A stretch of DNA of 64,000 bases from positions 794,636 through 858,635 of the forward strand of contig NZ_RJJE01000017.1 of NCBI RefSeq assembly GCF_003721565.1. The letters are read 5' to 3'. The notes beneath the pieces were generated by a model that made no database searches, was not told the DNA's origin, and saw only the letters and a program-made list of their open reading frames with translations. The position numbers and the translations under genes are program-made. The DNA is from Rufibacter immobilis (GTDB taxonomy: Bacteria > Bacteroidota > Bacteroidia > Cytophagales > Hymenobacteraceae). Positions 3,924 to 62,810 of the stretch are shown piece by piece; position 1 is the stretch's first letter, and each line of letters opens with the position of its first letter.

Positions 3924-6900
3924 ATGAGTGTTAGGCAGGACAAAGTACAGGTAGCCGTAGAGGTTGACGGCAGCCAGGGGATTAATGAGCTCGGTAAGCT
4001 CGAAATGAAGCAGAAGGACCTGCTCAAAACGCTGGGTGGCCTGAAAAACGGCACTAAGGCATACATTGAATCATTCAAGCAGCTGGAGGAAGTCAATGAT
4101 CTGGTAGACAAACAGCGCGAAAAACTCGGGCTTACCGGCATGACGATGAAGCAGCTCCGGAAATACCTGGGAGAGCTGAATCGTGAGCAGGCCACCGGCG
4201 CAACGTTCGGGACCGAGCGCTGGGACGAACTGCAGCAGAAAATTGATGCCGTCACCAATGAGATCCAGCGACAGGACCAGGTGAAAAAAGGCATTGCACC
4301 CTTCGTGAGCACCAAAGACCTGGCAGACCTGGATAAACTGGAGAAAGCGCAGACCAGGCTAACCCAGCAAATGCGCGGGCTCCAGGAAAACAGCAGAAAA
4401 TACCAGGAAGCCTACAAAGACCTGGAAGAGGTAAACGCCACCATTGCGGCACACCGGGAAGAACTCGGGATCACCGGCATGACCCTGGGCCAGCTGAAAA
4501 GCTGGTACAAAGACCTGGAAACTCAGATTGAGGGGATGGATTACGGTTCTGAGGCCTGGGTACAGGCCAAAGACAAAATGCAGGCTGTGGACGGCGCTAT
4601 TCAGAACCAAACCAAGAAAATAAAGGGATTGGGGGGTATGTGGCAGTGGCTGAAAAGCGAAGTCGCGCAGATGGGGATGCTTGCCGCCGTTTTCATGGGC
4701 CTCCAGCTGGCGGCGGAAAAAGTAAGCCAGGTGATCAGCTCTAACGCTGAGCTCTCAGACAGCTATGCCGACATAGAGAAATCAACCAACATGGCCACCG
4801 ACGAGGTGGAGAGGTTTGACAAAGCCCTGAAGAAAATTGACACCAGGACCAAAGCCAAAGACCTCCGGGATATTACCGTGATCGGCGGCCAGCTCGGCGT
4901 GGCCAATGATGAGCTGCTGAGCTTCGTGGAGAACGTTGACAAAGCCGTGGTGGCCCTGGGGGATGAATTCACGGGTGGGGCAGAGGAAGTGGCCAGAGAG
5001 TTGGGTGCACTGCAGAAACTCTTCAAGGAAACGGCGAAACTGGACGCAGGGGAAGCAATCAATAACATTGGTTCTGCCATTAACGCCCTGGGTGCAGATG
5101 GAGCCGCAACCGGTCCCGTAATCGCAGATTTCACAAAAAGATTGGGTGCCCTTGGAAACTTAGGGCCAAATATTTCGCAAACGCTCGGGCTAGGAGCCGC
5201 ACTACAGGAGCTGGGCCTAACCGCTGAAGTATCATCCGGAGGCGTGACCAATGTGATTCTAACCATGAACAAGCAGGCAGACAGCTTCGCCAAGTTCATG
5301 AAAATGGGCATTGCCGAGTACAAAGAAATGATGCAGAACAACCCTAACGAAATGCTCCTGACTATGGCAGAGCGCTTCAAAGGGGCCAGTTCAACGTCTA
5401 TTGTACAGACGCTGGAGAAACTGAACATCAACAGCCAGGAAGCGGTGAAAGTGGTGGCCCTGCTCTCCAACCAGACCCAAATAGTCCGGGAGAAACAGGA
5501 ACTGGCCAACCAGGCCATGAAGGAAGGGACCAGCTTAACGGACGAATTCAACAAGAAGAACAACAATTTCGCCGGGAAACTGGAGAAACTAGGCAAACTG
5601 CTGCATACCTCTTTCGTGAACAGCCCCATCAAAAGGGGCATGGAAAGTGTCGTTGACACCTTGCTGGGGATCGCCAAAGGGGCGGAAAACGCCACTGAGG
5701 CTTTCGGAAAATGGGAAAAGCAGTCTGAATTCGTGGAGAAACTGCAGGGAGGTTTCAGCGACCTGCTGAAGGAGTACGAAAGCCTCCAGGGAAAAACCAC
5801 ACGCACAGCTGAGGAAAACGAGCGCCTGGAAACGGTGATCTCAAAAATAGCGGAAGTGGTGCCGCAGGCCGTGACGGCCTGGGACAAATATGGCAACGCC
5901 ATGACCATCAACACGCAAAAGGCGCGTGATTTCATCAAGGAGCAGCAGGATGCCCTCAAATACATCAACAAAGAGAAAATTGAGGTCATTGAGAAGGAAA
6001 GGGCGCAGAAAAGCCTGGATCTAACCATTGCGAGGGCACAGCTTGATTCCGGGAAGAAAAGCAAAATGATCTCACAAAACACATCATGGGGCACCACTTC
6101 CATCCAGGAGGTCAAAATACCCATGACCGCGGCTGAATTCAACCAAGTAAGGGCCGATATAAACGCACTCCAGTCTGAACTCAACGGCATGGATGCGAAC
6201 CTGGCACTACTAAGGGGCGAGAAAACAAAGGCGCAGATTGCCCTGGAAAAAGAGAACGCGAAAAAAGACAATGACCCGGTAACAAAGGTAACGGAACTGG
6301 ATTTTGAAGACGCGGAGGCCAAAGCCAAGGAAGAGGAAAAGGCCCGCCACAAACAGGAAGCCGCACAGAAGAAAGCAGCTGACGCAAAACGCCGGGCCGC
6401 AGAGAAACTGGCCGAGGAACGCCAGCGCCAATTAAAGGAAATGCAGGAGATAGAGCGCCAGTACATGGATGCCTATATCGCCAATATTGCCGATGAATAT
6501 GAGCGTGAGCGTGAAATGAGCCGGCAGAACTTCATCCGCCAGATGGATGAGAGCAAGGCCCAGGGGACCGCGAGAATTGAGCTGGAGAAACTGCTTCGCC
6601 AGAAAATGAACGCTGAGATAGCGGCCGTGGACGCTAAGGAGGCGCTCAAAAAGAAAGAAACCGAGAAAGAGCTCTTTGACAAAAGGGCGCGGGATGCCAT
6701 GGCCGGTGCCAACCTCAACGTGATTGAGAAAGGCATGGAGCTGGATTTCGGGCCACAGGACGAAAAAAGCCAGAAGGAAGCAAGGGAAGCCTATAATAAG
6801 GCCAGGATTGAATCCATTGAGCTGGAGCGTGACCTGAAACTGGAGGAGCTGGAGATCACCAAAGGCACAGAGGCGGAAAAGAACCTCGTGATCGCGGAGA

Positions 6901-7811
6901 GCGAAGATGCGGTGGCGAAAATCCGGGCTGAGTACCGGGAAGACGAGAAACAGGCCATGGTGGACGCGGCAAACAACTTTGCCGACATCATGACCAATAT
7001 GATCAACGCGCTGAGTTCCTTCGCCCAGGCAGCCACGGAAGCGGATTTGCGCCGGGTGCAGAAACAAAAGGAATCTGCCCTGCAATCACTGGATGATCAG
7101 TATGGAAAGGGAACGCTCCGGAAAGCCAAGTACGAGAAGGAAAAGGAGAAAATTGAAAAACAGGCGGAGGAACGCCTCCGGAAAATCAAGAACGAGCAGG
7201 CGAAAAAAGACCGGGAGGCACAAATCGCCAATACCATCATCGCCGGATCAGTGGCCGTGTTGAGCGCCAGCGCCAACCCGCTCGGAATCCTTTCACCCCA
7301 GGCAGTGTCTACCGCCATTGCCGCAGGCCTGCAGCTGGCCACCGTGATCGCCCAGCCGATTCAGGAATACGCCGAGGGTGGATTGGTGCAGTTTTCCCCA
7401 AAACAGGCCAAATCCATCGCTGCCGGGGGAATGCAGACAGGCGGCGCTTTCCTTGCTTCCATGAACGAGGAAGGGCAGGAATACGTGGTCCCTAATTATT
7501 TGCTGCAAAATCCCGAGGTTGCGGACTATGTGAGCATCATAGAGGCCATGCGAACCGGCAACCACTACGGCCGGGGCTACGCAGAAGGCGGGCCAGGACC
7601 GGGGAACGGAAGCGATACCCAACTGCAGCGGCCGCAGACCGTGACGGAAAATCCGGAGAGCCGGCAATTAATGGAACAGACCCTGCAACAGATCCTGTAC
7701 CGCCTGGAGAATCCTTTGCCGGTGGAAGGTGTTTGGGATTGGGATTATTACCAGCGAAGCAAGGCAGAGATTGAGCAGATTAAATCAGAATCAATAGTAA
7801 CAGCCGCATAA
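3924..7811 (+). CDS. Phage tail tape measure protein
   Basis: A 1295-residue protein, the longest in the prophage. Residues about 20-125 and 130-235 form two tandem copies of a coiled-coil unit, each ending in a conserved block (LGLTGMTMKQL / LGITGMTLGQL). A predicted membrane segment follows (MLAAVFMGLQLAAEKV, near residue 245). The phage-tail TP901-type region follows, with long K/E/A-rich coiled coils from about 700 to 1080. The C-terminus has an apolar IIAGSVAVLSASANPLGIL segment and Gly-rich EYAEGG repeats. The length sets tail length and the protein is ejected ahead of DNA. It implies a long-tailed phage. The gene begins 2 nt after the previous stop and is followed directly by the next start. 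Confidence 0.9.
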   Translation: MSVRQDKVQVAVEVDGSQGINELGKLEMKQKDLLKTLGGLKNGTKAYIESFKQLEEVNDLVDKQREKLGLTGMTMKQLRKYLGELNREQATGATFGTERWDELQQKIDAVTNEIQRQDQVKKGIAPFVSTKDLADLDKLEKAQTRLTQQMRGLQENSRKYQEAYKDLEEVNATIAAHREELGITGMTLGQLKSWYKDLETQIEGMDYGSEAWVQAKDKMQAVDGAIQNQTKKIKGLGGMWQWLKSEVAQMGMLAAVFMGLQLAAEKVSQVISSNAELSDSYADIEKSTNMATDEVERFDKALKKIDTRTKAKDLRDITVIGGQLGVANDELLSFVENVDKAVVALGDEFTGGAEEVARELGALQKLFKETAKLDAGEAINNIGSAINALGADGAATGPVIADFTKRLGALGNLGPNISQTLGLGAALQELGLTAEVSSGGVTNVILTMNKQADSFAKFMKMGIAEYKEMMQNNPNEMLLTMAERFKGASSTSIVQTLEKLNINSQEAVKVVALLSNQTQIVREKQELANQAMKEGTSLTDEFNKKNNNFAGKLEKLGKLLHTSFVNSPIKRGMESVVDTLLGIAKGAENATEAFGKWEKQSEFVEKLQGGFSDLLKEYESLQGKTTRTAEENERLETVISKIAEVVPQAVTAWDKYGNAMTINTQKARDFIKEQQDALKYINKEKIEVIEKERAQKSLDLTIARAQLDSGKKSKMISQNTSWGTTSIQEVKIPMTAAEFNQVRADINALQSELNGMDANLALLRGEKTKAQIALEKENAKKDNDPVTKVTELDFEDAEAKAKEEEKARHKQEAAQKKAADAKRRAAEKLAEERQRQLKEMQEIERQYMDAYIANIADEYEREREMSRQNFIRQMDESKAQGTARIELEKLLRQKMNAEIAAVDAKEALKKKETEKELFDKRARDAMAGANLNVIEKGMELDFGPQDEKSQKEAREAYNKARIESIELERDLKLEELEITKGTEAEKNLVIAESEDAVAKIRAEYREDEKQAMVDAANNFADIMTNMINALSSFAQAATEADLRRVQKQKESALQSLDDQYGKGTLRKAKYEKEKEKIEKQAEERLRKIKNEQAKKDREAQIANTIIAGSVAVLSASANPLGILSPQAVSTAIAAGLQLATVIAQPIQEYAEGGLVQFSPKQAKSIAAGGMQTGGAFLASMNEEGQEYVVPNYLLQNPEVADYVSIIEAMRTGNHYGRGYAEGGPGPGNGSDTQLQRPQTVTENPESRQLMEQTLQQILYRLENPLPVEGVWDWDYYQRSKAEIEQIKSESIVTAA

Positions 7812-9512
7812 ATGGCACTCAGACTACTAAAAAGAGAAGTAACGCAAGGCGCAGACCTCAAATACTCAGGAAGGGAATATTATTTCAACGATGCCACCAA
7901 AGCCGTAGAAACGGTGCCGGTGGCATCGTTGCCGTTCAACAGCTCATTCTCCAGATCCACTGAAGAAAATGTTTTTACCGAGGATGCAATCCTGAAGGAT
8001 GGAATCTTCGTGACCATCTACCGACACGATGGTACCGGGGGAATTGTGAAGCTGGAGAAACAGGATTGGTATTATTTCACCATCACCAATGATAAACTTG
8101 CGCTAACGGTAAACCATGCCGGCATAGGTGAAAAAGGCTCCATTACAGCCTGGAAAAGCTACTCTGGTGAGCCGGGGGGAAGATTCGTGCTCTATAAAAT
8201 GCCGGAAAACGTCCAGGTGGACTACTCAGGGGATTTTGGGGTGGAGGAGTTTACCTTCCTGCAGGTTGCACCCGGGAAGTACCGCATAGATGTGGCCAGC
8301 GGTCCTTCCGGATCAATCAAGGCGGAAAAATTCGCCACCTTAGAAGAAAAAAGCCCAGAGCAGGGGGAGCCAATGCCGGAGCCGGAACCTACACCGGAGG
8401 AAAAAGTACTGCCGGCGCTGATCTTCACTAAATGTGCGTTAGAGATTTCGCACCAGGCACCGGGGCCAGCTGAAACCGTCACGCTTGAGATTTACATGGA
8501 AAGCGAATATATGACCGGGGATTACAGCAAAGTGGCAACCAGCTACAGGGACGCTGAAAACGATGGGGTAGCTACATTCAATATAGCAGACGCAATTAAC
8601 ACCAGACTGGAGGCAAGGCAGTTCCCCGGATATCCGGACCTTGAGCGAACAGCCACGCTGCAGATCAGGAACATGGCCAGGTTTTTCCTTCGCATTGGCC
8701 ATAAGGACCCCGAAACAAAACTGATGCGCTGGTACGTCAGCAACATTTGCACCGCGCTGGTGGGCGGGCTTCCGGAGGAAATAAACCAGCAGGAGTACTT
8801 CGCATGGATGCAACAGGAAAAGAAATTCATGACCTGGCAACCGGTGAAAAAGAAGGTGTACCCCAACCAACCCGAACTCTATTATTTCTTACTGGCCAAA
8901 GAGGAGCTGGAGAGCGTCAATCTTCGGGTGGAATTTATGAAAGGGGCAAACCCACAGCCGGTTGCCGTCAGAAAATACCCACTGGACCTTACAGGAAAGC
9001 CCTGGGCCTACAGGCTGCTGCAGTTCTCCCTACCCAACAGCGATTGGCCCAATGAAGCCGATAAAATAAGGCTGAACGTCTGCGATACCGCAGACCAGGC
9101 TATAAGCGAGACAAGGATTCTGGAAATACAGTGGCAAACAGATCCGGTAAGGAGCTTTCTTTTCAGGAACAGCCTTTGCGTCTATGATGTACTGCAGGCG
9201 ACAGGAGAAAAAACCGACAGCCTGGAAGTAGAGCAGCAAACCGCGGAGCGCTTCGGAGGCAAACAGTTCGTGTACCATCTGGAGGGCAGGAGAAGCCACA
9301 AAATCTCCACAGGCTACAAGACAAGGGAGTACCTGGAGTACCTGCAGGAATTTCTCCTATCCAGAAAAAAGGCCGAAATGGTGGACGGCAAACCAATGGA
9401 GATCATCCTGAGAACGAAAAAAATTGACTACCGCCAAGATTACCAAGGCCCCACAGGCTGGCAATTTGAATATGACCGGGCGCAAGCCACGAATTTCCAC
9501 GGAGCAAAATGA
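7812..9512 (+). CDS. Phage tail protein (distal tail/baseplate type)
   Basis: A 566-residue protein, beta-rich, placed between tape measure and a hub-like gene, the usual site of a distal tail protein. The N-terminal 200 residues are beta-strand-like with aromatic turns (QDWYYFTITNDKLAL). A Pro/Glu-rich linker follows near residues 180-195 (GEPMPEPEPTPEEKV). The rest has jelly-roll-like strands. No catalytic motif. The start ATG immediately follows the tape measure stop, and the end overlaps the next start (ATGA). Function is inferred from gene order; host binding is possible. Confidence 0.6.
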   Translation: MALRLLKREVTQGADLKYSGREYYFNDATKAVETVPVASLPFNSSFSRSTEENVFTEDAILKDGIFVTIYRHDGTGGIVKLEKQDWYYFTITNDKLALTVNHAGIGEKGSITAWKSYSGEPGGRFVLYKMPENVQVDYSGDFGVEEFTFLQVAPGKYRIDVASGPSGSIKAEKFATLEEKSPEQGEPMPEPEPTPEEKVLPALIFTKCALEISHQAPGPAETVTLEIYMESEYMTGDYSKVATSYRDAENDGVATFNIADAINTRLEARQFPGYPDLERTATLQIRNMARFFLRIGHKDPETKLMRWYVSNICTALVGGLPEEINQQEYFAWMQQEKKFMTWQPVKKKVYPNQPELYYFLLAKEELESVNLRVEFMKGANPQPVAVRKYPLDLTGKPWAYRLLQFSLPNSDWPNEADKIRLNVCDTADQAISETRILEIQWQTDPVRSFLFRNSLCVYDVLQATGEKTDSLEVEQQTAERFGGKQFVYHLEGRRSHKISTGYKTREYLEYLQEFLLSRKKAEMVDGKPMEIILRTKKIDYRQDYQGPTGWQFEYDRAQATNFHGAK

Positions 9513-58167: not shown

Positions 58168-58899
58168 GTGCTTCCAGTAAAACTACTCAATTCGCTCCGG
58201 ATTCTCACCCAACCAGATGATTCCACCTGCGGTCCTACCAGTTTACATGCCGTTTACCAATATTACCAGGACATACTCCCCCTGGAGCAGGTAATTTCTG
58301 AAGTATCATTCCTGGAGGAAGGTGGCACGCTGGGCGTCATGTTAGGATGCCATGCTCTGCGCAGAGGCTACAGGGCCAGAATCTATACCTATAACCTGCA
58401 CGTGTTTGACCCCACCTGGTTCAAGCTGAAGAACGATGATTTGGTTAAAAACCTGCGGGAGCAGATGCTTTATAAAGGTGACCCCAAACTGCACATAGCC
58501 AGCAAGGCCTACATTGAATTTTTGGAGCTGGGGGGCGAAATCTGTCACAAAGACTTAACCGTTGACCTACTGGACAATTACTTCTCCAAGGGAATTCCGC
58601 TGCTCACCGGGCTCAGCGCCACCTACCTGTACAACTGCGCCCGGGAGCGCACCAATGACCGTGGTGAGGCAATCTATGACGATGTACGGGGGGAGCCGCT
58701 TGGGCATTTTGTGGTCCTGGCCGGTTTTGACAATGAACAGGAAAAAGAGCACGTGATTGTGGCTGATCCTTATCAGGAAAACCCGCTTTTCAGAAACAAC
58801 TATTATAATGTGACTATCTCCCGCCTGATCAATGCCATCATGCTGGGCATCGTTACCTATGATGCCAATCTGTTGGCCATAGAACCTAAAGCATCCTAA
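58168..58899 (+). CDS. C39-like papain-fold peptidase
   Basis: A 243-residue protein; GTG start. It carries a papain-like C39 catalytic set: Cys in QPDDSTCGPTSLHAVYQYY, His in GHFVVLAGFD, and Asp in VIVADPYQEN. No signal peptide and no transporter domain, so it is cytoplasmic and not part of a bacteriocin exporter. It is followed 29 nt later by an ATP-grasp ligase, so it likely cleaves or transfers acyl groups on the ligase product. This pairing is the start of a four-gene operon. Confidence 0.85.
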   Translation: MLPVKLLNSLRILTQPDDSTCGPTSLHAVYQYYQDILPLEQVISEVSFLEEGGTLGVMLGCHALRRGYRARIYTYNLHVFDPTWFKLKNDDLVKNLREQMLYKGDPKLHIASKAYIEFLELGGEICHKDLTVDLLDNYFSKGIPLLTGLSATYLYNCARERTNDRGEAIYDDVRGEPLGHFVVLAGFDNEQEKEHVIVADPYQENPLFRNNYYNVTISRLINAIMLGIVTYDANLLAIEPKAS

Positions 58900-58928
58900 A
58901 CCAATACCCATAGAACACTCCAACCTTC

Positions 58929-60395
58929 ATGCGCAAACTAGTAGTGGTCAATAATACCAAAGACTGGGATCTTGACGTAGAAGATGTAGAAGTGGTTGAC
59001 GCGCAACGTTACCTCACAGACCCTACTTATACAGAGCTTAAAAGCGCCCGCATCTTTAACCTGTGCCGGTCCTATAAATACCAAAGCAGCGGCTATTATG
59101 TCTCACTTCTGGCAGAAGCCCGGGGCCACAGGCCCATTCCCAACGTGACCACTATCCAGGATTTAAAGTCGCAGACCATTGTGCGGGCTATCACGGATGA
59201 AATCAATGAGACCATCCAGAAGAGTCTGTCAAAGCTAAAGTCCAAAAACTTCACCTTGAGCATTTATTTTGGGCAGAACGTGGCCAAGCAGTACGAGAAG
59301 CTGAGCAAGCAGCTGCATGACCTGTTTCAGGCCCCTCTGCTTCGGGCACAGTTTGTCTATAATAAAGAGTGGACGCTGGAAAGCATCAGTCCCATCCCGG
59401 TGAACGAGGTGCCGGAACATCACCTACGGGATCTGTATAGATTTTCTAAGGCCTACTTTGCCCGCAACCGCTTTGCCGGAAGCCGCATCAACAAGAAGAT
59501 CTATGACCTGGCCATTCTGGTGAACCACGCCGATGCTGATCCGCCGTCTAACGACAAAGCCATTCAGAACTTTATGGAGGCTGCCGAAGGGCTAGGATTC
59601 TATACTGAACTTATCACCAAGGAAGACTACCGACGGCTTTCTGAGTTTGATGCGCTGTTCATCAGGGAAACTACCTCTGTGAACCACCATACCTACCGTT
59701 TCGCGCGCAGAGCCCATGCCGAGGGGTTGGTGGTCATTGATGATCCTGTATCTATTTTGCGCTGCACGAACAAAGTATATCTGGCCGAGCTGCTCACCAA
59801 AGCCAAAGTTTCCATTCCCAAGAGCATGATCATCCACAGGGAGAACTGTTGTAAAGTGGTGGAGGAACTAGGTCTGCCGTGCGTGCTCAAGAAACCCGAT
59901 TCTTCTTTCTCCCAGGGCGTGGTGAAAGTAAAAACCGAGGAGGAACTCGCTGAGCAATTGCAGGAGATGCTGTCAGAGTCAGATTTGATTATTGGCCAGG
60001 AATTCACCCCCACTGATTTTGACTGGCGCATTGGTGTACTGGACAAGCAGCCGCTGTATGCCTGTAAATACTTTATGGCCAAAGACCATTGGCAGATCTA
60101 CAACTGGGAAGGCAAAAAGAAAGACATCACCGGCGATTTTGAAACCGTTCCTTTTGAGCAGGTGCCTTTTTTTGTACTGCACACCGCCTTGAAAGCCGCC
60201 AATCTTATTGGCGACGGGTTATATGGCGTAGACTTAAAGGAAATAGATGGCAAGGCCTACGTGATTGAGGTGAACGATAATCCTAACATTGACCACGGGG
60301 TAGAGGATAAAATCCTGAAGAAAGATCTGTACCAGACCATTCTGAAATCCATCAAGCGCCGCATTGACAACCAAAAGAAATTTGAACAGGCATGA
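58929..60395 (+). CDS. RimK-like ATP-grasp ligase with RLAN domain
   Basis: A 488-residue protein. The N-terminal part (about 1-160) begins KLVVVNNTKDWDLDVEDVEV and matches the RimK-like ATP-grasp N-terminal (RLAN) domain. The C-terminal ATP-grasp (about 290-480) shows PCVLKKPDSSFSQGVVKV, an acidic magnesium site, and VDLKEIDGKAYVIEVNDNPN. RimK enzymes add amino acids, mostly Glu, to C-termini of proteins or peptides. The usual target in this system is unknown. The stop overlaps the next start (ATGA), so the products are likely made together. Confidence 0.9.
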   Translation: MRKLVVVNNTKDWDLDVEDVEVVDAQRYLTDPTYTELKSARIFNLCRSYKYQSSGYYVSLLAEARGHRPIPNVTTIQDLKSQTIVRAITDEINETIQKSLSKLKSKNFTLSIYFGQNVAKQYEKLSKQLHDLFQAPLLRAQFVYNKEWTLESISPIPVNEVPEHHLRDLYRFSKAYFARNRFAGSRINKKIYDLAILVNHADADPPSNDKAIQNFMEAAEGLGFYTELITKEDYRRLSEFDALFIRETTSVNHHTYRFARRAHAEGLVVIDDPVSILRCTNKVYLAELLTKAKVSIPKSMIIHRENCCKVVEELGLPCVLKKPDSSFSQGVVKVKTEEELAEQLQEMLSESDLIIGQEFTPTDFDWRIGVLDKQPLYACKYFMAKDHWQIYNWEGKKKDITGDFETVPFEQVPFFVLHTALKAANLIGDGLYGVDLKEIDGKAYVIEVNDNPNIDHGVEDKILKKDLYQTILKSIKRRIDNQKKFEQA

Positions 60396-61633
60396 GCTCC
60401 GTAAAGAAATTAGGTTTGTTTGAGGGCTACGGAGTAGAGATAGAATACATGATTGTAGACCAGGACACGCTGGAGGTTAAGCCCATCTCTGATGAAGTTC
60501 TTAAAGCCGAGGCCGGAATGTTGACCTCAGATGTGGAGCGGGACACCATGGCCTGGTCAAACGAACTGGTGCTTCATGTGCTGGAACTTAAAACCAACGG
60601 ACCGGCGGATTCACTCACAGACTTGGCCCATCAATTCCATACCGAAGTGCAACGGGTAAATACTTTGCTGTTGCCATTCAAGGCGATGTTGTTGCCTAGC
60701 GGTGCCCATCCGTTCATGGACCCGCATACCCAGACCGTGCTTTGGCCCCACGACGCCAGCGAGATCTACGAAGCCTACAACCGCATTTTCAACTGCCAGG
60801 GCCACGGCTGGTCTAACCTGCAAAGTACGCACGTGAACCTTCCGTTTGGGACGGATGAGGAATTTGGAAGACTTCATGCCGCCATAAGGTTGGTGCTGCC
60901 GCTCATCCCGGCGTTGAGTGCCGCTTCGCCTTTACTGGATGGGAAATTCACAGGTTATTTAGATGCCCGCCTGGAGGTGTACCGTACCAACCAACAGAAG
61001 ATTCCGCTTATTGCCGGTGAAGTAGTTCCAGAGGCGGTGTTCAGCCAAAAGGACTATGAGGCGGAGATTTTTGAGCCCATGTACCAGGCCATTGCGCCCT
61101 TTGATCCGGAGGGGGAACTACAGGACGAATTTCTCAATTCCCGAGGCGCCATTGCTAGGTTCAGTAGGGGGGCTATTGAAATCAGGATCATTGACAACCA
61201 GGAGTGCCCGCTCGCCGACATCGCCATTGTGGCCTTCGTTTCCGAAGTTTTGAAAAAACTGGTGGCTGAGCAGTGGAGCACCTATGCAGACCAACAGCAG
61301 GCAGACACTTCCAGGTTGGCAACCGTGTTCAGGGCCTCACTGAAAAACGGGTTTGAGACGATTATTGAGGATGCGGATTATCTGCGGCTTTTGGGCATGG
61401 CTGTTGAGAGAGCTTCCTTGCAGCAGGTGTGGCAACACCTGTGGCAGGAAATACGGGAAGAGAATACTTTGACAGCTGAAATACGCCACGCAATTGAGAC
61501 TATTTTGGAACAGGGGAACCTGTCCCAGAGAATTTTACAGGTTTTAGGGGAAAATCCTTCCTTAGAACAAATAAAAGGCGTATACAGACAGTTAGCTAAG
61601 TGTCTGGCTTATAATAAATTATTCACACCTTGA
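60392..61633 (+). CDS. GCS2-type glutamate-cysteine ligase family protein
   Basis: A 413-residue protein of the carboxylate-amine ligase GCS2 family (PF04107 type), a glutamine synthetase-like fold. It opens LGLFEGYGVEIEYMIVDQD, the first strand with the catalytic Glu pair; TNGPADSLTDL and GCQGHGWSN-like segments (NCQGHGWSNLQSTHVNLPFG) hold other metal and substrate residues. Cysteine is not necessarily the substrate. In a bacterium with bacillithiol, glutathione synthesis is not expected, which favours a special ligase role. Overlaps both neighbours by 4 nt. Confidence 0.88.
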   Translation: MSSVKKLGLFEGYGVEIEYMIVDQDTLEVKPISDEVLKAEAGMLTSDVERDTMAWSNELVLHVLELKTNGPADSLTDLAHQFHTEVQRVNTLLLPFKAMLLPSGAHPFMDPHTQTVLWPHDASEIYEAYNRIFNCQGHGWSNLQSTHVNLPFGTDEEFGRLHAAIRLVLPLIPALSAASPLLDGKFTGYLDARLEVYRTNQQKIPLIAGEVVPEAVFSQKDYEAEIFEPMYQAIAPFDPEGELQDEFLNSRGAIARFSRGAIEIRIIDNQECPLADIAIVAFVSEVLKKLVAEQWSTYADQQQADTSRLATVFRASLKNGFETIIEDADYLRLLGMAVERASLQQVWQHLWQEIREENTLTAEIRHAIETILEQGNLSQRILQVLGENPSLEQIKGVYRQLAKCLAYNKLFTP

Positions 61634-62331
61634 AAGACGAGCGTTTAAAAGTTCTGGTCACCTGTGAGCACGGCGGAAACGAAATTCCGCCGGAGTATGC
61701 TTCTGCCTTTGAAACGGCGGAAGAGGTGTTGGCTACGCACAGGGGGTACGACATTGGCGCGCTGGAACTGTTCAAGAAACTGCGGAAAATCTCAGACTTC
61801 TCCCTCTACAGCACCACCAGCCGGTTGGTGGTGGAACTGAACCGCTCGTTGCACCATCCGCATTTGTTCTCTGAATTCATGCTCCCGCTCTCTACCACCC
61901 AGGCCGAAGGGGTTTTGCGCCAGCATTACTATCCGTACCGCAAGCGCGTGGAAGACCAGATAAAGGAGTGGGTGGAGCAAGGGCACCACGTAACGCACGT
62001 TTCGGTGCACAGTTTCACTCCGGTCATCAGTGGCAAACAGCGAAAAGCCGACATTGGATTGCTGTATGACCCCAAACGGGAGCGGGAACAACTTTTTGCG
62101 GCCCGGTGGCGCCAGAAGATACAGCTGCTCAACCCAGACTATAAAATTAGATACAACTACCCCTATAAAGGTACTGCCGATGGATTGACCACGCACCTGC
62201 GCAAACTTTTCTCTGATGAAAAATATGCGGGGCTGGAACTAGAGGTGAACCAGCGCTACCCTGCCACCAACCCAGAGCTTTGGCAAGAACTTCAGGCGGT
62301 ATTGCAGCAATCTTTAGCGGGTGCGCTTTAA
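61630..62331 (+). CDS. N-formylglutamate amidohydrolase family protein
   Basis: A 233-residue protein. Start is a TTG at 61630 overlapping the previous stop (TTGA), giving MKDERLKVLVTCEHGGNEIP. CEHGGNEIPPEY is the family signature with the zinc His and Glu; HVSVHSFTPV has the second His and LYDPKRERE the Asp-Arg block. Family members cleave N-formylglutamate or, in other contexts, gamma-glutamyl or related amides. There is no hut gene nearby, so histidine degradation is unlikely. As the last gene of the operon it may deblock or trim the product of the two ligases. Confidence 0.88.
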   Translation: MKDERLKVLVTCEHGGNEIPPEYASAFETAEEVLATHRGYDIGALELFKKLRKISDFSLYSTTSRLVVELNRSLHHPHLFSEFMLPLSTTQAEGVLRQHYYPYRKRVEDQIKEWVEQGHHVTHVSVHSFTPVISGKQRKADIGLLYDPKREREQLFAARWRQKIQLLNPDYKIRYNYPYKGTADGLTTHLRKLFSDEKYAGLELEVNQRYPATNPELWQELQAVLQQSLAGAL

Positions 62332-62417: not shown

Positions 62418-62810
62418 ATGAATCTGATTCTTGACCTCCTCCTCAGTGCCGGTGTGCTACTGTTGCTCGCGTACATTATGCCGCAGGTTACCGTTAAAAG
62501 TTTCTGGACTGCCCTTTGGGTAGCCATTCTAGTAGGAATCCTTAATGTACTCATCGGGTATATCTTAACCTTTATCCTGAACCTGGTGACGTTCTTCCTG
62601 CTGGAGTTCCTGGTGAAGCTGATCGTTTCGGCAATCGTGATCAAAATAGCGGATAAGTTGGTGCGCAATTTCGAAATCAAAGGTTTCTGGCCCGCTTTGG
62701 TCATTGCTCTGGCCTTGTCTTTGGTAAGCACATTCGTGAACCGTTCAGATGAGGAAGACCGTGCCGAGTACAGCGCTCTGCCTATAACTACCCCAACTCA
62801 GGTTAGCTGA
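62418..62810 (+). CDS. Phage_holin_4/YvlD-like membrane protein
   Basis: A 130-residue protein with four hydrophobic segments: LILDLLLSAGVLLLLAYIM, FWTALWVAILVGILNVLIGY, IVSAIVIKIADKL with its preceding apolar helix, and FWPALVIALALSLVSTFV. This is the PF04020/YvlD layout, chromosomal despite its phage name. The C-terminus is polar. It starts at ATG 62418; the ATG at 62408 is out of frame and stops after eight codons. It is 86 nt after the C39-RimK operon, so co-transcription is uncertain. Function unknown. Confidence 0.85.
   Translation: MNLILDLLLSAGVLLLLAYIMPQVTVKSFWTALWVAILVGILNVLIGYILTFILNLVTFFLLEFLVKLIVSAIVIKIADKLVRNFEIKGFWPALVIALALSLVSTFVNRSDEEDRAEYSALPITTPTQVS

Follow-up and report, generated by a model that had tools for sequence, protein, structure and literature searches.

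A four-gene cassette of Rufibacter immobilis was found to possess a core of two ligases, namely an ATP-grasp ligase with an RLAN domain and a GCS2-family carboxylate-amine ligase, to which a C39/papain-like protein and an N-formylglutamate-amidohydrolase-like (FGase) protein are accessory, each of these two hydrolases being separately dispensable. It is tentatively suggested, at somewhat less than even confidence, that the cassette serves to make a small N-capped peptide, which many hosts would also turn over. Within the window, i.e., the whole stretch of 64,000 nucleotides that was analysed, the cassette comprises four plus-strand open reading frames across positions 58168-62331, the same coordinates as had been read from the sequence alone:

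58168..58899, plus strand: C39/papain-like protein, 243 aa, GTG start; Pfam Peptidase_C39_2 (PF13529), 2.8e-7
58929..60395, plus strand: RLAN and RimK-type ATP-grasp ligase, 488 aa; Pfam RLAN 5e-51, RimK 2.4e-10
60392..61633, plus strand: GCS2-family carboxylate-amine ligase (glutamine-synthetase-fold), 413 aa; Pfam GCS2 6.7e-32
61630..62331, plus strand: FGase protein, 233 aa, TTG start; Pfam FGase 4.8e-23

The C39 and RLAN genes are separated by 29 nt, the RLAN and GCS2 genes share a 4-nt ATGA overlap and the GCS2 and FGase genes a 4-nt TTGA overlap. From this spacing the sequence-only reading had concluded that the genes form one unit, which is borne out by the verified coordinates and gaps and by a linkage that is conserved across phyla; its description of the unit as two ligases and two hydrolases agrees with the Pfam matches, which lie above the gathering score for all four proteins. 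None of the four reached the cut-off of any NCBIfam model, hence they are regarded as members of unnamed subfamilies. In a scan with one genome per species, the closest relatives were Rufibacter species, family Hymenobacteraceae. A gene for a small membrane protein of 130 aa (window positions 62418-62810) lies 3' of the cassette in most Rufibacter loci; this protein is also present in the congener G009 and is absent from distant carriers.

For the distribution of the cassette, 80 RLAN loci were collected from the GTDB species set (one genome per species) and their neighbour genes were scored by six-frame profile scans. GCS2 was identified near 66, FGase near 54 and C39 near 43 of the 80 loci, nearly always in the order C39-RLAN-GCS2-FGase on one strand and usually with an overlap or a short gap at the RLAN-GCS2 junction, a linkage that is far from chance. 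Among Bacteroidota, the carriers include Hymenobacteraceae and further groups; outside this phylum they include Ignavibacteriota and Fibrobacterota, one MAG each of Desulfobulbaceae and Leptospiraceae and two isolates of Legionella. Rufibacter, Pontibacter and Legionella are among the culturable carriers, and a three-gene form occurs in Salegentibacter. The search of conserved neighbourhoods that had been proposed earlier as a check found the four families together, with unchanged gene order, in several distantly related phyla. The flanking genes vary between lineages, open reading frames of 60-80 aa or more revealed no further conserved member of the cassette, whether a fifth gene or a small carrier protein, and no gene for a substrate protein is conserved there. 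As RLAN was present in 31 of 247 sampled genomes of the phylum, its distribution is patchy. Among the individual records, a 9-kb piece filed as a Legionella adelaidensis plasmid (L090) carries RLAN-GCS2-FGase together with fur and dapF and may be a misfiled chromosomal piece. The RLAN reading frame is fragmented at L123 and L085, and at L123 the GCS2 frame as well, which probably reflects assembly errors.

The constancy of the two ligases was identified in a sample of 59 related genomes, in which the GCS2 subfamily was called at >500 bits. It was present in all 27 genomes with RLAN and in none of the 32 without (Fisher test 2e-17; a second co-occurrence test gave 7e-16; both ignore relatedness). 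C39 was found at full score in 26 of the 27 RLAN genomes and in none of the remaining related genomes, and FGase resides at the cassette in most of the 27, being absent from G031 and located at other loci in G012 and G035. Among more distant carriers, a genome-wide search revealed no full-score C39 in 14 flavobacterial and other genomes which carry RLAN, GCS2 and FGase (G252, G280, L062, L063, L065, L066, L068, L069, L073, L075, L076, L078, L058 and L053), the control genome G088 scoring 362 bits in the same search; L061 likewise possesses no full-score C39 genome-wide and GCS2 is missing there, too. FGase in turn is absent genome-wide from many other carriers, e.g., G080, G160, G179, G202 and G324-G330. 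As C39 or FGase can be missing from an entire genome while RLAN and GCS2 are constant, the ligase pair is assigned as the core and the hydrolases as accessory. The earlier proposal of synthesis and trimming by the four genes is consequently retained for its synthetic core, but the hydrolases are dispensable and the four genes do not constitute one obligate set.

Where GCS2 is lacking, RLAN mostly has one of two settings: it is either part of a GNAT-RLAN-ATP-grasp fusion, about 650-720 aa long, as in Prolixibacteraceae, Labilibaculum and Delongbacteria, or it adjoins a papain protein of the GNAT-DUF3335 type, as in L093 (Tistrella), L092 (Azospirillum) and L152. The GCS2 subfamily was absent in 15 of 15 GNAT-type RLAN genomes, with both positive controls scoring >620 bits, which fits two interchangeable amine-capping enzymes. 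The data are thus suggestive of GCS2 being replaceable by a GNAT acetyltransferase as partner of RLAN, whereby the RLAN tree requires no more than two switches from one of these partners to the other, so that the exclusivity rests on few events. Two exceptions were encountered: L061 carries RLAN and FGase with no GCS2 nearby, and in the short contig of L040 neither GCS2 nor GNAT was found beside RLAN.

The RLAN-ATP-grasp protein combines both domains in one chain, RLAN (PF14401) scoring 172.7 bits against a cut-off of 25 and RimK (PF08443) 40.8 bits against a cut-off of 21. The RLAN domain occupies residues 25-167 and represents an additional N-terminal domain of about 145 aa, and ATP-grasp signature residues, among them K321, D435, E447 and N449, are invariant in 32 orthologues. 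The structural model (pLDDT 84, pTM 0.60) was searched in full length and returned ATP-grasp matches, which cover the ATP-grasp part and identify a resemblance of this part to RimK, LysX and ArgX (TMt ~0.72-0.83). By profile, RimK, LysX and MptN are closest to the ATP-grasp part, with glutathione synthetase being weaker (PRK12458, 6e-12). Identity with canonical ribosomal protein S6 RimK was rejected, given scores of 65.9 bits against a cut-off of 143.4 for rimK_fam and of 24.8 against 331 for the S6 ligase, and a separate canonical RimK is kept in the host and its cassette-free relatives (252, 252 and 250 bits, the host locus scoring 252 bits). Among the papers searched in full text, no experimental work on RLAN proteins came up. 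On the Pseudomonas aeruginosa plasmid pZYPA1927, an RLAN-RimK gene stands alone (L089, 6908-8497); none of the genes annotated around it is C39, GCS2 or FGase.

The GCS2 protein belongs to a divergent subfamily of its family. Its invariant columns, derived from 22 orthologues, include G14/E16/E18, H147 and R251/E263/R265; no solved relative was found at E<=0.001, profile search included, and the alignment with YbdK is marginal. Because of this strong divergence, a prediction of the substrate from the GCS2 protein fails.

The C39 protein scores 31.6 bits with PF13529 (cut-off 24), a model that matches 19 of 19 members. Residues C21, H180 and D200 do not vary across 19 diverse orthologues and Q15 is present, in accordance with the earlier statement that Cys, His and Asp are intact; no obvious signal peptide is seen and the protein is predicted to be a cytosolic cysteine hydrolase or transacylase. 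In its AlphaFold model (pLDDT 85), the best solved folds are tied at Z ~15, namely the C39 domain of PCAT1, PeiR and the phytochelatin synthase Alr0975. PeiR is a pseudomurein endoisopeptidase, which cleaves isopeptide bonds, and phytochelatin synthase processes glutathione. Fold matches of this kind do not define activity. The phytochelatin synthase model PF05023 matched 2 of the 19 members (best E 0.072), and Alr0975, with a fold Z of 14.9, is tied with C39 peptidases. A putative specific descent of the protein from the papain domain of GNAT-DUF3335 is suggested by a profile match (93%, E 2.6e-7, 21% identity), but the C39 and C39_2 models fit the protein equally well or better.

For the FGase protein, identity with HutG and a role in histidine degradation were rejected (TIGR02017, 12.8 bits against a cut-off of 278.75), and a profile match to the solved protein Atu2144 (2odf) was found at 1.8e-31. 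In one congener (L143 in G009, positions 6200-7849) most of the cassette has been lost from the same site: C39 and RLAN are missing, and of GCS2 about the last 35 codons are left beside an intact FGase gene. Through this deletion of natural origin, FGase is set apart from the other cassette genes.

Beyond the observed genes, domains, conserved active sites, gene order, co-occurrence and missing parts, we infer each reaction, the order of the steps and the product, the cap and extension steps being modelled by analogy. Initially, the GCS2 protein would link glutamate, through its gamma-carboxylate, to the amine group of X, which is an amino acid or an amine, yielding gamma-Glu-X. Next, the RLAN-ATP-grasp protein would activate a free carboxylate of gamma-Glu-X, or of a related acceptor, and add a residue Y. 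Its relatives RimK, MptN, CofF and LysX often add glutamate. The overall logic would resemble that of GshA and GshB in glutathione synthesis with a different product being formed. The C39 protein may then act on the product as hydrolase or transpeptidase, like phytochelatin synthase does on glutathione, or as isopeptidase, and the FGase-like enzyme would hydrolyse an N-acyl-glutamate-type amide; that these hydrolases are individually dispensable is to be expected of turnover or tailoring steps. In related systems, an acetyl cap introduced by GNAT would stand in place of the GCS2 cap, as in Ngg. This single enzyme N-acetylates one glutamine and ligates it in an ATP-dependent manner to a second, and its gene shares an operon with that of a peptidase (PMC8070244). 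The Ngg/NAGGN osmolyte pathway thus resembles the GNAT-RLAN-ATP-grasp fusions in uniting acetylation and ligation in one protein, but no RLAN, GCS2, C39 or FGase is reported there (PMC8070244), and no NAGGN model was among the NCBIfam hits of the fusion at L088.

A capped peptide is favoured by the constant ligase pair, by GNAT standing where GCS2 is absent, with Ngg as precedent, by the RimK, LysX and MptN likeness of the ATP-grasp part, by the folds tied with that of the C39 protein and by the lack of a conserved substrate or carrier gene. It is opposed by the fact that the carboxylates used by RimK and LysX belong to proteins, which by analogy makes a protein acceptor possible. Protein tagging is the main rival, according to which the RLAN-ATP-grasp protein would ligate amino acids onto protein carboxylates, the GCS2 protein would branch or extend the tag by gamma-glutamyl bonds and C39 and FGase would remove it; we hold this to be possible if rather unlikely. 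The nearest solved ATP-grasp structures, RimK and ArgX/LysX, include some with a bound protein, RpsF or LysW, and the additional N-terminal RLAN domain could bind a protein. A precedent is given by RimK, which glutamylates RpsF and is counteracted by the protease RimB, which removes the added residues (PMC12239564). Like this ribosomal protein S6 system, the cassette unites a RimK-type ATP-grasp ligase with a peptidase; unlike it, the cassette adds the RLAN domain and GCS2, and cysteine and FGase-type hydrolases replace the retropepsin RimB. Tagging is opposed by the lack, in every lineage, of a gene for a candidate target protein beside the cassette and by the canonical RimK which the host and cassette-free relatives keep separately. 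Moreover, the genome-wide loss of either hydrolase in carriers means that tag reversal is not essential.

Recycling or tailoring of cell-wall (murein-type) peptides, with the papain-like and FGase proteins cutting and the ligases re-ligating, is considered improbable. Murein-type peptides contain isopeptide gamma-D-Glu bonds, and the C39 fold is tied with that of the pseudomurein endoisopeptidase PeiR. In Rufibacter and another Hymenobacteraceae genus, an FGase paralogue (260-286 bits) adjoins a gene for an S66 LD-carboxypeptidase, which is muramoyltetrapeptide carboxypeptidase-like (L153, 4913-6629; L154, 3656-5349; L146, 4949-6671). However, this pairing resides at a locus separate from the cassette, Mur, Mpl, AmpG and epimerase genes were not noted alongside the cassette itself and the presence of RLAN in a minority of the phylum's sampled genomes is ill-suited to a general wall-recycling step. 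Equally little probability is given to the catabolism of amines or amino acids via gamma-glutamylated intermediates, similar to the Puu route for putrescine, in which the hydrolases would free glutamate. A GCS2-type ligase acting on amines could pair with an FGase-family amidohydrolase, the one for making and the other for release, but the cassette is not accompanied by any conserved oxidase, dehydrogenase, aminotransferase or transporter, the ATP-grasp ligase finds no obvious place in such a route and the FGase protein is not HutG.

Concerning thiols, the host genome encodes BshA (567 bits) and BshC (434 bits), both above cut-off, which substantiates the earlier description of the organism as a bacillithiol producer; no glutathione synthase scored over cut-off there, and the sub-cut-off match overlaps the canonical RimK locus. 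The two Legionella carriers possess a glutathione synthase over cut-off elsewhere in the genome and no BshC. Models for glutamate-cysteine ligase and glutathione synthase remained far below cut-off for both the GCS2 and the RLAN-ATP-grasp protein. With a BshA/BshC host without glutathione synthase over cut-off on the one hand and Legionella with its own on the other, the cassette is not the cell's source of glutathione, as the sequence-only reading had presumed for the GCS2 protein; and as the cassette occurs in both thiol backgrounds, its product is not the bulk thiol and its presence is independent of which bulk thiol is made. A glutathione or bulk-thiol route, with GCS2 making gamma-glutamylcysteine and the ATP-grasp ligase adding glycine, is hence very improbable: the GCS2 family name and the weak likeness of the ATP-grasp part to glutathione synthetase speak for it, but the host's thiol genes, the separate full-scoring Legionella synthase and the failure to reach any glutamate-cysteine ligase equivalog cut-off led to its rejection.

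Iyer et al. 2009 (Mol Biosyst 5:1636) reportedly predicted peptide-ligase neighbourhoods in which RLAN-RimK stands beside a papain-like protein, GCS2 and other peptidases. Their GNAT/DUF3335 association is reported by PMC10318531. The cassette shares with these neighbourhoods RLAN-RimK next to a papain-like protein, with an acyltransferase or another ligase as further partner, C39 and GCS2 being found beside RLAN here and GNAT-papain at L092, L093 and L152; it differs from the GNAT-DUF3335 type by a stand-alone C39 protein without GNAT, by GCS2 and FGase and by its fixed four-gene order. With known enzyme types and an association that was broadly predicted earlier, the cassette is a variant of the predicted kind. 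GshA/GshB together with phytochelatin synthase likewise offer a GCS2-type ligase, an ATP-grasp ligase and a papain-like enzyme acting on a gamma-glutamyl peptide, but the cassette proteins reach no equivalog cut-off and are found both in hosts that make bacillithiol and, in Legionella, together with a glutathione synthase.

A constant RLAN and GCS2 pair, dispensable hydrolases and GNAT where GCS2 is absent narrow the problem to the joint product of the GCS2 and ATP-grasp ligases. If this product is a tag, the cassette would represent a new protein modification. If it is a new capped peptide, a common bacterial metabolite would so far have been missed; it is conceivable, albeit doubtful, that a novel and widespread gamma-glutamyl peptide exists beside glutathione or bacillithiol which, with a parallel acetyl-capped version made by GNAT-RLAN proteins, would constitute a third, modular family of small capped bacterial peptides.
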